NCBI RefSeq assembly: GCF_002727125.1 | Contig: NZ_NHOA01000043.1 | Coordinates: 62,001-126,000 of the forward strand | Reading direction: 5' to 3' | DNA from: Halorubrum persicum | GTDB lineage: Archaea; Halobacteriota; Halobacteria; Halobacteriales; Haloferacaceae | Length of the DNA: 64,000 nucleotides | Shown here: positions 24,740 to 29,699 of the stretch, piece after piece | How the letters are laid out: every line of letters starts with the position of its first letter | Numbering within the stretch: position 1 is the first letter of the stretch | Notes under the pieces: model-generated | What the model saw: only the letters and a program-made list of their open reading frames with translations | Told to the model about the DNA's origin: nothing | Databases searched by the model: none | Program-made: the position numbers and the translations under genes

Positions 24740-25192
24740 TCAGCTTCCCTCTCGAGTGCCGTCGTCGAACTGGACCGAGTCCTGCGGCCGGCCCGCCTCG
24801 TCGATCACGTCGTCGGAGACGACGATCGGGCAGTCGATCCGGACGGCGAGCGCGAGCGCGTCGGAGGGGCGCGCGTCGAAGACGAACCGCTCCGGCTCGC
24901 CGTCCTCGTACCGCTCGGCGTCGACCTTGGCGTAGAAGGTGCCGTCCCGGAGGTCGTCGACCCGGACGCGATCGATCGCACCCCCGAACTCGGTGAGGAT
25001 GTCGACGAGGAGATCGTGTGTCAGCGGGCGGTCGAACGGCTCGCCTTCGAGCGCCATCCCGATCGACTGCGCCTGATCGGCGCTGACGAAGATCGGGACG
25101 TACTCGCTGCGAACGGACAAGATGACCGCCGGCACGTCGCCGCCGGGTGCGGAGCCCGCTCCGACCCCGACGACCTCGGCTTCGTGTTCCAT
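24740..25192 (-). CDS. Bifunctional nuclease family protein (DUF151)
   Basis: A 150-residue protein of the BFN/DUF151 family, some members of which cut RNA and DNA in vitro. Family features are ILSVRSEYVPIFVSADQAQSI, DLLVDILTEFGGAIDRVRVDDL, FYAKVDAERY and ARPSDALALAVRIDCPI. The ATG chosen gives the core with a short N-terminus; an in-frame ATG eight codons earlier is possible. It lies behind the thioesterase gene on the minus strand, 74 nt upstream of it, and may be its operon leader. Confidence 0.88.
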   Translation of the reverse strand: MEHEAEVVGVGAGSAPGGDVPAVILSVRSEYVPIFVSADQAQSIGMALEGEPFDRPLTHDLLVDILTEFGGAIDRVRVDDLRDGTFYAKVDAERYEDGEPERFVFDARPSDALALAVRIDCPIVVSDDVIDEAGRPQDSVQFDDGTREGS

Positions 25193-25278: not shown

Positions 25279-25965
25279 TCAGCGACCGCCCCAGTACCAG
25301 TACGCCCAGCCGACCGTGAACACGAGCGCGGCGCCGAGGAAGAAGATGACGCCCGGCTCGAGCAGCGAGACCGCGTACTCCGCCAGCGGGTCGACGACGT
25401 ACTCGACGGTGCCGTCGACCTCTCCGCCCGCGCCGCTGTCGGGCGTCGTCTCGATGGACGGGCCGCCCCCGCTGTCCTCGGTCGCGGCGTCGCCGCCCGC
25501 GTTCTTGGCCACGCGGGCCGTCGGTCCCGCCACCGAGAGGACCCGTTGGGCCGCGAACGCCGCGAGCCCGATGATCCCGTAGCCGCCGAGCAGTCGCATC
25601 AGGGCGGACTTGATCCCGCGCGACCCCTCGGAGCCGCCGGCGAACAGCACGAGCGGCTCGTCGGCGGCCGCGTACACGTCCATCTCGCGGCCCTTCTCGG
25701 AGTAGGTCGTGTCGATGACGTCGACGAGGTCGGCGCCGTCGAGCTTCGAGAGGTGGTACTGGACGTTCTGGAGCGAGGTGTCGACGGCGTCGGCGAGCTC
25801 CGATTTGGTCGCCGGCTCGTCGTGGAGTCGCGTGAGGATTTCGCGCGCCGTCTCGGAGCCGAGGGCGGCGATGAGCTCGTCCGCGTCGTCGTCGTCGACG
25901 CCGACCACCCGGGGTTCGCGGTCTTCGGGGGTTGCGTCGGGGAGGGAGGGCAACAGCCGCGACAT
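25279..25965 (-). CDS. Membrane-anchored winged-helix (ArsR-like) regulator
   Basis: A 228-residue protein with an N-terminal winged helix (residues about 28-110: LGSETAREILTRLHDEPATKSELADAV, then NVQYHLSKLDGADLVDV). This is followed by two hydrophobic segments, about 127-143 (GYGIIGLAAFAAQRVL) and 200-224 (EPGVIFFLGAALVFTVGWAYWYW), separated by an acidic linker. The DNA-binding domain would lie in the cytosol. It is transcribed divergently from the TraB gene, and a perfect 10-bp palindrome lies in the shared promoter. Targets are unknown; autoregulation and control of traB are inferences. Confidence 0.85.
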   Translation of the reverse strand: MSRLLPSLPDATPEDREPRVVGVDDDDADELIAALGSETAREILTRLHDEPATKSELADAVDTSLQNVQYHLSKLDGADLVDVIDTTYSEKGREMDVYAAADEPLVLFAGGSEGSRGIKSALMRLLGGYGIIGLAAFAAQRVLSVAGPTARVAKNAGGDAATEDSGGGPSIETTPDSGAGGEVDGTVEYVVDPLAEYAVSLLEPGVIFFLGAALVFTVGWAYWYWGGR

Positions 25966-25990
25966 ATCTGGCCCTCCGCCCCGTGAGAAT

Positions 25991-26000
25991 ACAAATTTGT
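25991..26000. promoter_or_regulatory. Palindrome in the divergent regulator/TraB promoter
   Basis: ACAAATTTGT is a perfect 10-bp palindrome 26 nt before the regulator's start codon on the minus strand and overlaps its TATA-like region. It is a candidate operator or simply the TATA area. Confidence 0.4.
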
Positions 26001-26072
26001 TGGATCATCGAGTGGGAGACGGAGGTCACCGACTCACAAACCCTAAACGCGGCGACGAAGTACGTCGTGGCA

Positions 26073-27866
26073 ATGACAGAGACGCCAGGGGGATCCGACG
26101 GCGCGTCCCCGCCCCCGACGGCGAGCGACCCGGCGGCGGCCGCCGGCGACGAGAATACCCCCGCGAGCGGGACGGTCGGAACGCCCTCCGGCGGCGACGG
26201 GGACGGCTCGGTGACGGTGGTCGGCACCGCGCACGTCTCCAAGCAGTCCGTCGACGAGGTCGAGGAGACGATCGAACGCGAGCGGCCCGACGTGGTCGCC
26301 GTCGAGCTCGACGAGGGGCGGTACCGACAGATGAACGGCGAGAGCCCGGAGGATCTCGACGCCAGCGACCTGCTGCGGGGGAACACCGTCTTCCAGTTCC
26401 TCGCGTACTGGATGCTCTCGTACGTCCAGACACAGCTCGGCGACCGCTTCGACATCGAGCCCGGCGCCGACATGCGGGCCGCCATCGACGTCGCCGAGGG
26501 GCTCGGCATCGACGTGGCGCTGGTCGATCGGGACATCCAGACGACGATCCAGCGCTTCTGGGCCCGGATGTCGGTCACGGAGAAGCTACGGATGGTCGGC
26601 GGGCTCGCGTTCGGCGTCACCGACTCCCGCGTCGTCGGGGTGTTGGTGGGGCTGTTCGTCGGGATCCTCGCCGGCCCCGTGATCGGGCTCTTCGGCGGGA
26701 GCGTCGGGGTCACCGACGCGCTGTTAACGAGCGTCACCGGCGGCGTGCTCGCCGCGGTCGCGGTCGCGGTCGCGGTCGATCAGGTCGGGAAAGTCGCGCT
26801 CTCACCCGACGGACGACTCTACGCCGCGGCGGCGCTGGGCGTCGCCGCCGGGGTCACCGCCGCCGCGGTCGGCGCGATCGACGGGATCGTCGCGACGTAC
26901 CTCGGCGGATTCACCGTGCGGGCGGTCGGGAGCCTCGGGCTGGGCGTGTCGCTGGGGCTGACGCTCGGCGTGCTCGCGTCGCTCGCGATGAGCGTCGTCG
27001 GACGGGGGGCCAGCGAGCCCGAACACGGCGGGATCGAGGAGCTCGGGATGGAGGACCTGACCGACACCGACGTGGTGACGATGATGATGGAGGAGTTCCG
27101 CCAGTTCTCCCCGGGCGGCGCGGAGGCGCTCATCGACGAGCGCGACGCCTTCATCGCCCACCGGCTCGTCGCCCTCCGCGAGGCCGGCTACGACGTGGTC
27201 GCCGTCGTCGGCGCGGGCCACCGCGCGGGGATCGAAGAGTATCTCGCGAACCCCGCCTCCCTCCCGCCGATGGAGGACCTCGTCGGGAAGGAGCGCGGGC
27301 GCGGGCTCCCGTGGAAGAAGGCGGTCGGCTACGCGATCACCGTCGGCTTCGTCGGCTTCTTCGTCCTGCTCGCGCTCGCCGGCGTGGAGAACGCGTTCCT
27401 CTTCCGGCTGTTCGGCGCGTGGTTCCTGATCAACGGCGCGTTCGCGTTCGCGTTCGCGAAGCTCGCGGGAGCTCGCTGGGCCTCGGCCGGGGTCGGCGGC
27501 GCCGTCGCGTGGATGACCTCGATCAACCCGGTGCTCGCGCCCGGCTGGTTCACGGGCTACGTCGAGCTGCGAAATCTGACGGTGAACGTCGGTGACATCG
27601 GGCAGCTCAACGAGCTGCTCTCCGACGAGACGCAGTCGCCCTCGGAGCTGGTCTCCGCGATGCTCGACGTCCCCCTGTTCAAGCTCATCGTCGTGGTCGC
27701 GATGACGAACATCGGGAGCATCGTCGCGAGCTTCCTCTTCGCGGTGTACGTCATCCCCGCGATGTTCGGCGACGTTGGCGGCGTCGACGAGGTGGGGCGG
27801 CTCATGATCGAAGGGGCGAGCACCGGCGCGGAACTGCTCCGACGCGCGATCACGGGGGGAGCGTGA
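26073..27866 (+). CDS. TraB/PrgY-family membrane protein
   Basis: A 597-residue protein. After a 45-residue disordered start, the TraB domain runs from about 47 to 180: VVGTAHVSKQSVDEVEETIE, RPDVVAVELDEGRY and a later GAGHRAGIEEYL, motifs shared with PrgY/TraB and GumN/TIKI proteins. Around it are about eight membrane helices, in an internal block (residues 190-320) and a C-terminal block (430-590). PrgY in enterococci reduces pheromone activity; the archaeal role is unknown, and TIKI relatives suggest metal-dependent proteolysis. The start is the ATG preceded by CCCTAAACG about 30 nt upstream. Confidence 0.88.
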   Translation: MTETPGGSDGASPPPTASDPAAAAGDENTPASGTVGTPSGGDGDGSVTVVGTAHVSKQSVDEVEETIERERPDVVAVELDEGRYRQMNGESPEDLDASDLLRGNTVFQFLAYWMLSYVQTQLGDRFDIEPGADMRAAIDVAEGLGIDVALVDRDIQTTIQRFWARMSVTEKLRMVGGLAFGVTDSRVVGVLVGLFVGILAGPVIGLFGGSVGVTDALLTSVTGGVLAAVAVAVAVDQVGKVALSPDGRLYAAAALGVAAGVTAAAVGAIDGIVATYLGGFTVRAVGSLGLGVSLGLTLGVLASLAMSVVGRGASEPEHGGIEELGMEDLTDTDVVTMMMEEFRQFSPGGAEALIDERDAFIAHRLVALREAGYDVVAVVGAGHRAGIEEYLANPASLPPMEDLVGKERGRGLPWKKAVGYAITVGFVGFFVLLALAGVENAFLFRLFGAWFLINGAFAFAFAKLAGARWASAGVGGAVAWMTSINPVLAPGWFTGYVELRNLTVNVGDIGQLNELLSDETQSPSELVSAMLDVPLFKLIVVVAMTNIGSIVASFLFAVYVIPAMFGDVGGVDEVGRLMIEGASTGAELLRRAITGGA

Positions 27867-27915
27867 TCCGGCCCCTCGGGACGGGCGCCTCCCGGCGTGT
27901 CCGTGAGGTGAACGC

Positions 27916-28584
27916 GTGAGCGGAACCGTTCAGGGCCGGCGGATAGCCGGGCTCTACTTCAGCGGGACCGAGATCCGCGACCTGCTGGTCGCGTGGCTCG
28001 CGCTCGGCGTCGCGTTCACGTTCTTCTTCGTGAACGGCACCGCCGGCTTCGATCGGCTGCTCGCGGCGGGCGTCTTTCCGCCGCTGCTGGTCGGACTGCT
28101 CACCGCGGGCGTCGCGTTCCTGCTCCACGAGATCGCCCACAAGGTCGTCGCGGTCCACTACGACCAGGTGGCCGAGTTCCGCGCGGACAACAGCATGCTG
28201 TTTCTGGCGGTGATGAGCTCGCTCCTCGGGTTCATCTTCGCCGCGCCGGGCGCGGTCCACCACCGAGGCCGGCTGACGCCCCGTGAGCACGGTCACATCG
28301 CGCTGGCGGGGCCGGTGGTCAACCTCCTGCTCACGGTCGTGTTCGTGCCGGCGCTCCTGCTCGGCCCCGTGATCGGGAGTCCGGTGGTCACGCTGATCGG
28401 CTCCCGCGGGATCGCGATCAACGTCTTCCTCGCGGCGTTCAACCTGATCCCGTACGGCCCCCTCGACGGGAAGACCGTGATCGGGTGGAGCAAGGGCGTG
28501 TGGGCCGGCTTCTTCGCGCTCTCCGTCCTGCTCACGGTCGGGCTCGTGTTCGTGCTCGGGCTCGGCTTCGGCGGACCGTTCTGA
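27916..28584 (+). CDS. M50-family intramembrane metalloprotease
   Basis: Site-2-protease-like membrane enzyme of 222 residues with about six helices. The zinc motif HEIAH is at H71/E72/H75, and the third ligand motif NLIPYGPLDG places D184. The start is GTG, 49 nt after the TraB stop, so the two are probably cotranscribed. M50 enzymes release membrane-bound regulators by regulated intramembrane cleavage, and a membrane-tethered regulator is encoded just upstream of traB. There are no PDZ or CBS domains, so this is the minimal form. Confidence 0.9.
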   Translation: MSGTVQGRRIAGLYFSGTEIRDLLVAWLALGVAFTFFFVNGTAGFDRLLAAGVFPPLLVGLLTAGVAFLLHEIAHKVVAVHYDQVAEFRADNSMLFLAVMSSLLGFIFAAPGAVHHRGRLTPREHGHIALAGPVVNLLLTVVFVPALLLGPVIGSPVVTLIGSRGIAINVFLAAFNLIPYGPLDGKTVIGWSKGVWAGFFALSVLLTVGLVFVLGLGFGGPF

Positions 28585-28676: not shown

Positions 28677-29699
28677 ATGACCGAGGGCGACGGCGGAGAC
28701 GACGGAAGCAGTGGCGGGGACGGTGCCGTGGACGAACTCACCTACGCGGACGCCGGCGTCGACATCGGCGCCAGCGAGGCGGCGACGGCCGCGTTGATCG
28801 GCGCGGTCGGCGAGGGCGAGGGCGACTACGCCGGCCTGCTCGACATCGGCGACCGCTACCTCGCGCTGGCGACCGACGGCGTGGGGACGAAGCTCCTCGT
28901 CGCCGAGGCGCTCGGCGACTACTCGACGGTCGGCGTCGACTGCATCGCGATGAACGTCAACGACCTGGTCGCCGCCGGCGTCCGCCCCGTCGCGTTCGTC
29001 GACTACCTCGCGGTCGACGAGCCCGACGAGCGGTTCGCCGAGCAGGTCGGCGAGGGGCTCGCGCGCGGCGCCGGCCTCGCCGACATGGAGCTCGTCGGCG
29101 GCGAGACCGCGGTGATGCCCGACGTGATCCGCGGGCTCGACCTGGCCGGGACCTGCGCCGGCCTCGCCGCGAAGGACGCCGTCTTCGACGGCGAGGCGGA
29201 GCCGGGCGACGCCCTCGTCGGCTGGCGCTCCTCCGGGATCCACTCGAACGGGCTCACGCTCGCGCGCGAGGCCGCGACCCGCGATCACGAGTACACCGAC
29301 CCCTGTCCGTTCGAGGGGTACGAGACGGTCGGCGAGGCGCTGCTGGAGCCGACCCGCATCTACACCGACCTGCTCGACCCGATGCGGGAGCACGGCGTGC
29401 GCGGCGCGGCCCACGTCACCGGGGGCGGCTGGACCAACCTGACGCGGCTCGGCGCCAACCGGTACGTCGTCGAGGACGCCTTCGACCCCCAGCCGGTCTT
29501 CGAGTTCGTGCAGTCGGAGGGGGGCGTCTCCGACGAGGAGATGCACCGGACGTTCAACATGGGAACCGGCTTCGTCGCCGCCGTCGACCCCGACGCGGCC
29601 GAGTCGCTGGCCGCCGAGACCGACGGACGCGTGATCGGGCGGGTGGAAGACGGCGAGGGCGACGAGGGAAGCGTCGCGATCCGCGGACTGGAGCTATAA
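28677..29699 (+). CDS. purM: Phosphoribosylformylglycinamidine cyclo-ligase (AIR synthetase)
   Basis: Fifth step of purine synthesis: ATP-dependent closure of FGAM to 5-aminoimidazole ribotide. It is 340 residues, normal length plus a 20-residue acidic N-terminus. Family motifs are TYADAGVDI, LALATDGVGTKLLVAEAL, DCIAMNVNDLVAAGVRPVAFVDY, GGETAVMP, GIHSNGLTLAR and AHVTGGGWTNLTRL. The ATG follows a CGCTTTTGC patch by about 30 nt. It is a single gene, followed by the structured element described separately. Confidence 0.94.
   Translation: MTEGDGGDDGSSGGDGAVDELTYADAGVDIGASEAATAALIGAVGEGEGDYAGLLDIGDRYLALATDGVGTKLLVAEALGDYSTVGVDCIAMNVNDLVAAGVRPVAFVDYLAVDEPDERFAEQVGEGLARGAGLADMELVGGETAVMPDVIRGLDLAGTCAGLAAKDAVFDGEAEPGDALVGWRSSGIHSNGLTLAREAATRDHEYTDPCPFEGYETVGEALLEPTRIYTDLLDPMREHGVRGAAHVTGGGWTNLTRLGANRYVVEDAFDPQPVFEFVQSEGGVSDEEMHRTFNMGTGFVAAVDPDAAESLAAETDGRVIGRVEDGEGDEGSVAIRGLEL

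Follow-up and report, generated by a model that had tools for sequence, protein, structure and literature searches.

A TraB-family gene linked to a mini site-2 protease gene in Halorubrum persicum and other archaea, compared with enterococcal pheromone control

Described TraB and site-2 protease systems and the Halorubrum locus

Proteins of the TraB family silence peptide signals in bacteria. What these proteins do biochemically is disputed, in a family that reaches from archaea to mitochondria, and we know of no established physiological role for the site-2 proteases (S2Ps, family M50) of archaea. Enterococci use both families: their M50 protease Eep liberates peptide pheromones from precursors in the membrane, which PrgY/TraB then takes away (PMC7117660), so that Eep makes the very signals that TraB silences. 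Here, we describe a pair of genes from the same two families in Halorubrum persicum. The pair lies in a stretch of 64,000 nucleotides (contig NZ_NHOA01000043.1 of assembly GCF_002727125.1, positions 62,001 to 126,000), which is called the window in the following. A traB gene is followed on the same strand by the gene of a minimal S2P, and the two genes are found side by side in almost all Halobacteriales genomes in which both could be located. Their reading as a linked two-protease unit is well supported. In contrast to this adjacent archaeal pair, eep is chromosomal and the enterococcal traB is borne on a plasmid, beside traC. The genes of the locus and one variable region are:

26073..27866, + strand, traB, TraB/PrgY-family membrane protein of 597 residues, ATG start, TIGR00261
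27916..28584, + strand, mini site-2 protease (M50) of 222 residues starting with GTG, with six hydrophobic segments and neither a CBS nor a PDZ domain
25279..25965, - strand, winged-helix regulator with HTH_20 and HVO_1552_C domains and two hydrophobic segments
26619..27047, + strand, part of traB for the lineage-variable four-helix membrane insertion (residues about 183-325; alignment A2 and structure model)

The layout with the winged-helix gene divergent from traB, and with the M50 gene 49 nucleotides after traB, had been given in a first-pass annotation of the window, and the three genes were confirmed in these places; the 49 nucleotides separate the stop codon of traB from the GTG of the M50 gene. 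That annotation had also ascribed intact HExxH and NxxPxGPLDG motifs to the M50 protein and two membrane segments to the winged-helix protein, both of which are borne out below, the first of the two segments being borderline.

The relation to the enterococcal protein extends over its full length. The archaeal TraB profile aligns with positions 5-380 of the 399 of the plasmid TraB of E. faecalis (258 bits), which takes in the membrane domain. This full-length match is reciprocal, and a tblastn search finds the same protein with an E-value of 2e-15. No linkage of TraB to M50 was seen in the two bacterial loci examined (Cytobacillus and E. faecalis). We know of no pheromone in these archaea.

The window TraB itself matches TIGR00261 with 258 bits (cut-off 178.35, E 1.3e-76). 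With the TIKI/TraB family (Tiki1/2, TRABD) it shares paired GxxH-type motifs and a conserved glutamate. Across Halobacteriales, the residues G51-T-x-H54, E78, R83, and G380-x-G-H383 are invariant in 24 homologues, and both histidines, the glutamate, and the arginine remain invariant when more distant TraBs are compared. The TIKI endopeptidase VvRRSP uses a catalytic set of two histidines and two glutamates with an ExH pair (PMC6254334). Two histidines and one glutamate of this set are clear in the window TraB, while the position of the ExH glutamate is occupied by Thr52; another invariant glutamate could substitute for it. Unlike Tiki1/2 and TRABD, the archaeal TraBs have a C-terminal membrane domain, often a four-helix insertion in the catalytic domain, and a genomic link to S2Ps. 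Their architecture is a TIKI-type domain that is split by the optional insertion and followed by the conserved membrane domain, whose segment W-x-TS-x-NP-x-LAPGWF is among the most conserved parts of the alignment. The AlphaFold model (mean predicted local distance difference test score, pLDDT, 79.9) places the insertion helices at residues 185-211, 215-242, 245-266, and 279-312. Among the folds in the PDB, it is best matched by a TraB-family protein from complex IV of Tetrahymena (probability 1.00). The insertion is found in the TraBs of the window's family (Haloferacaceae) and some others and is missing in alignment A2 from those of loci L049, L051, L065, L066, L069, L071, and L072. Two loci contain TraB open reading frames (ORFs) of only 229-237 residues without the C-terminal membrane domain, located between two S2Ps (L089 4576-5262 and L092 3305-4015). 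In a congener, the traB match falls into two pieces in different frames (G120:C1:763845-765610), a possible frameshift or assembly error.

The M50 protein contains the motifs HEIAHK and NLIPYGPLDG. Residues H71, E72, H75, N176, P179, D184, and G185 are invariant in 21-26 homologues, including S2Ps with CBS domains. Its PF02163 score of 24.9 bits is below the Pfam cut-off of 27.2, and single-sequence searches found no relatives of known structure for either TraB or M50, for which family profiles were needed. The M50 family profile matches the S2P structure of M. jannaschii (3b4r, E 1.5e-6), which is also the sole credible Foldseek match of the predicted structure (pLDDT 91, probability 1.00, template modelling score 0.44). 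By motifs, sequence profile, and predicted fold the protein belongs to the site-2 protease family, and zinc-dependent intramembrane proteolysis is its predicted activity. With the MjS2P-type CBS site-2 proteases (MJ0392; HVO_0285 class) it has the M50 core, the HExxH, and the N..P...LDG in common; it differs from them in having no CBS domain and in belonging to a separate lineage. The genome of H. persicum encodes its own orthologue of the CBS-S2Ps on another contig (C87), remote from traB.

Linkage of traB to site-2 protease genes

The order was surveyed in 146 genomes sampled evenly from Halobacteriales, many species being represented by draft genomes. Of these, 144 gave a traB and 139 an M50 gene, and all 122 high-quality genomes have both. 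Coordinates for the two genes were available in 137 genomes; in 134 of them M50 directly follows traB in the same orientation, with a median gap of about 20 nucleotides and genes that often touch or overlap. The three exceptions (G009, G011, and G025, from families f9 and f11) have traB and M50 on different contigs. The conserved neighbourhood, which the first-pass annotation had proposed as a check, therefore holds for this pair, and it extends to other families.

The wider survey of the linkage covered the phylum, of which 197 genomes were searched with the profiles A1 and A2. Among 20 loci fetched from other families, eight have the order CBS-S2P, TraB, mini-S2P and eight more the order CBS-S2P, TraB; sequence inspection identified the CBS domains at the C-termini of the long M50s of these families. 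Loci in which TraB lies between an upstream CBS-S2P and a downstream mini-S2P are L074, L075, L076, L077, L087, L089, L092, and L093. In a further set of 80 named loci from Methanosarcinales, Methanoperedens, Archaeoglobi, and others, a CBS-S2P is encoded directly upstream of TraB in 57, six of which also have the downstream mini-S2P, and slightly further upstream in three more. TraB is thus linked to one of two S2P lineages or to both, an arrangement that most simply goes back to a single ancestral operon. We found no publication on a linkage of TraB and S2P genes in archaea, although the coverage of the literature was incomplete.

Three housekeeping neighbours of the pair are present in the window:

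28677..29699, + strand, putative purM-like gene downstream of M50, assigned by reading its sequence
24740..25192, - strand, bifunctional nuclease (BFN_dom) gene 3' of the winged-helix gene, PF02577 120 bits
24183..24665, 4HBT thioesterase gene, found repeatedly near traB on its divergent side

As traced by clustering, homologues of purM are found 3' of M50 in 22 Halobacteriales loci and near the unit in eight others, and purM stays beside M50 in those f9 and f11 loci from which TraB has moved away (L050, L068, and L070). It is a recurrent but looser neighbour of the pair. The thioesterase gene keeps this position even in families that do not have the winged-helix gene (L041 and L049).

The winged-helix gene and the intergenic region

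The divergent gene encodes a protein of 228 residues that matches HTH_20 with 48.4 bits and HVO_1552_C with 46.8 bits, both over the cut-off of 27. Its hydrophobic segments are at residues 121-139 (hydropathy 1.61, borderline) and 198-216 (2.07). It thus shares its two domains with the HVO_1552-type membrane winged-helix regulators, of which it is one local copy that happens to stand beside traB and M50, outside the conserved unit. Among the matches listed, the winged-helix gene and traB diverge directly in 10 of the 19 genomes sampled from the window's family; in four more they lie within 1.4-1.6 kb of each other, with an extra gene in between. A glycerate-2-kinase-like gene, as read from the sequence, separates the two genes in L035 (2758-4083) and L037 (3849-5210). 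Outside the family, the gene was not seen beside traB in any fetched locus, nor among the best matches listed; its homologues sit elsewhere in these genomes. In L012, the winged-helix and BFN genes are kept together as a pair away from traB. No member of the HVO_1552_C family turned up in 28 of the 146 genomes of the order, many of which keep traB and M50 adjacent (f5 g12, f14 g21, and G060); genomes with the pair but without the domain family include G005, G014, G053, G057, and G061. The check whether all three genes stay together across Halobacteria, which the first-pass annotation had proposed, fails for the regulator: in the loci fetched and the best matches listed, it adjoins traB in no family but that of the window, and we rejected a three-gene module on this scale. 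An obligate pairing of the winged-helix protein with M50 does not appear in the co-occurrence data either, the HVO_1552_C family being missing from genomes that have traB and M50. The winged-helix gene is a lineage-specific local neighbour and no conserved member of the unit.

The Pfam domain HVO_1552_C is named after HVO_1552 of H. volcanii. HVO_1554 would be the traB of this species, since the order winged-helix gene, kinase, traB, M50 fits the consecutive genes HVO_1552 to HVO_1555, the last of which has been catalogued among the S2Ps. The catalogue enters HVO_1555 without a known function and as seen in the proteome (PMC9263693), and its transcript is up under perchlorate (PMC12175516). 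This rise is weak evidence, compatible with a role in clearing damaged membrane proteins. A literature search found no publications on HVO_1552 or on the function of archaeal TraBs.

Two elements were considered between the divergent genes:

26035..26049, + strand, candidate core promoter of traB, CACAAACCCTAAACG, TAAA 26-29 nucleotides before the ATG
25991..26000, no strand, palindrome ACAAATTTGT, read as the region of the TATA box and TFB recognition element (TATA/BRE) of the winged-helix gene

The palindrome ACAAATTTGT lies 26-35 nucleotides upstream of the ATG of the winged-helix gene. By a simple count, about 60 palindromes of ten bases are expected by chance in 64 kb. An AACAAAnTTyAT-like element is found in the same position before winged-helix genes that are far from traB. 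In six of nine congeners the dyad is broken, and there is no covariation: left and right halves taken from different species fit each other about as well as those of the same species. The palindrome is best read as the putative TATA/BRE region of a leaderless winged-helix gene. The sequence that the first-pass annotation had pointed out is therefore real, but its use as a feedback operator of traB was rejected as unsupported, given the core-promoter position and the dyad that is not conserved. The element CACAAACCCTAAACG is invariant or nearly so in eight congeners, and a similar CGACAxxxGTAAAAA element is found at the same distance before traB in other families. It is probably the own core promoter of traB, which would also give a leaderless transcript; leaderless transcription is suggested by the spacing between element and start.

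Possible functions of the pair

We tentatively favour the reading that traB and M50 encode co-transcribed membrane proteins that act jointly on the same membrane substrates, M50 cutting them and TraB trimming, clearing, or gating. Its basis is the linkage, the conservation of the motifs, and the full-length homology to the TraB of pheromone shutdown; co-transcription, common substrates, topology, and activity are what we infer. M50 would cut segments embedded in the membrane, such as remnants of signal peptides, stubs of proteins, or tethered peptides, close to the cytosolic face. TraB, whose TIKI-fold domain is predicted to lie on the same side, would then trim, destroy, or gate the pieces, much as the enterococcal TraB/PrgY removes the peptides set free by Eep. 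Both the TIKI-fold domain and the M50 active site are presumably cytosolic, because the N-terminal domain of TraB has no signal peptide and is rich in lysine and arginine in the methanogen TraBs, and because the HExxH of M50 is found where its second hydrophobic segment ends. In the sister lineages, the CBS-S2P could couple the unit to the adenylate pool. A much broader view, which we regard as rather unlikely, is that CBS-S2P, TraB, and mini-S2P form an ancient archaeal membrane-peptidolysis complex, in which the CBS-S2P would sense the energy state and TraB would destroy the peptides liberated by the S2Ps. If so, the shutdown of pheromones in enterococci would be a derivative, carried on plasmids, of a general function in the clearance of S2P products.

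Several observations weigh against a joint action of TraB and M50. TraB occurs without a linked M50 in families f9, f11, and f2, in Methanophagales, and in some Methanomicrobiales and Methanosarcina loci; among the named loci, several of the unlinked ones sit at contig ends. For PrgY, an action outside the cell has been proposed (PMC7117660), in contrast to the presumed cytosolic placement of the archaeal TraB. Only part of the TIKI set of two histidines and two glutamates is recognisable in TraB, and a peptidase role of this branch is putative. A traB deletion in Methanococcus maripaludis is viable and had neither a transformation defect nor another phenotype found there (PMC10133366). The activity, the substrates, and a complex of TraB and M50 are predictions from sequence. 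Moreover, purM is a recurrent neighbour too, so that some of the linkage could simply reflect an old arrangement of genes.

Taken further, the last point would mean that the adjacency is nothing but inherited gene order without functional coupling, in keeping with the retention of purM, the thioesterase, and the BFN gene. The 30 loci with purM, and its place beside M50 in loci from which TraB has moved, agree with this. However, TraB and S2P are linked far more tightly than the other neighbour pairs, their linkage persists where other neighbours have changed, and across deep families TraB keeps one S2P, the other, or both, which makes mere inheritance improbable. Somewhat better placed, though still doubtful, is the possibility that TraB has no protease function here and serves instead as a membrane partner by which the S2P is regulated in its activity, its assembly, or the presentation of its substrates, so that the pair would be a regulated S2P complex. 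The strong conservation of the C-terminal membrane domain and the coupling to two different S2P lineages would fit such a partner. Both GxxH-type motifs and E78 are nevertheless invariant, as expected of an enzyme, and the short TraB ORFs that have no membrane domain are still found between two S2Ps.

Least probable of all is the circuit proposed in the first-pass annotation, in which the membrane-anchored winged-helix protein would be set free by M50, TraB being the first protease or a partner, and would feed back on the traB promoter. M50 enzymes do release tethered regulators, the winged-helix protein combines a cytosolic-type DNA-binding domain with two membrane segments, which leaves cleavage by M50 possible, and its gene is divergent from traB in ten genomes of the window's family (among the matches listed). 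Against this stand its absence from the side of traB outside the family in the fetched loci and the best matches listed, the many genomes that keep traB and M50 without the regulator family, its pairing with the BFN gene elsewhere, and the palindrome, whose dyad is not conserved and which coincides with the core-promoter region of the winged-helix gene. Of the two-protease signalling pathway suggested there, the linked pair with its invariant active-site residues stands, and the winged-helix protein as the third member does not.

For the joint action of TraB and M50 on the same substrates, which we prefer, the linkage across a whole order and its sister lineages, and to two types of S2P, yields a specific and cheap hypothesis, namely that TraB handles the products of S2Ps. 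Because H. volcanii, which has the orthologues, is genetically tractable, both the role of the archaeal S2Ps and that of the TraB proteins may be tested there.

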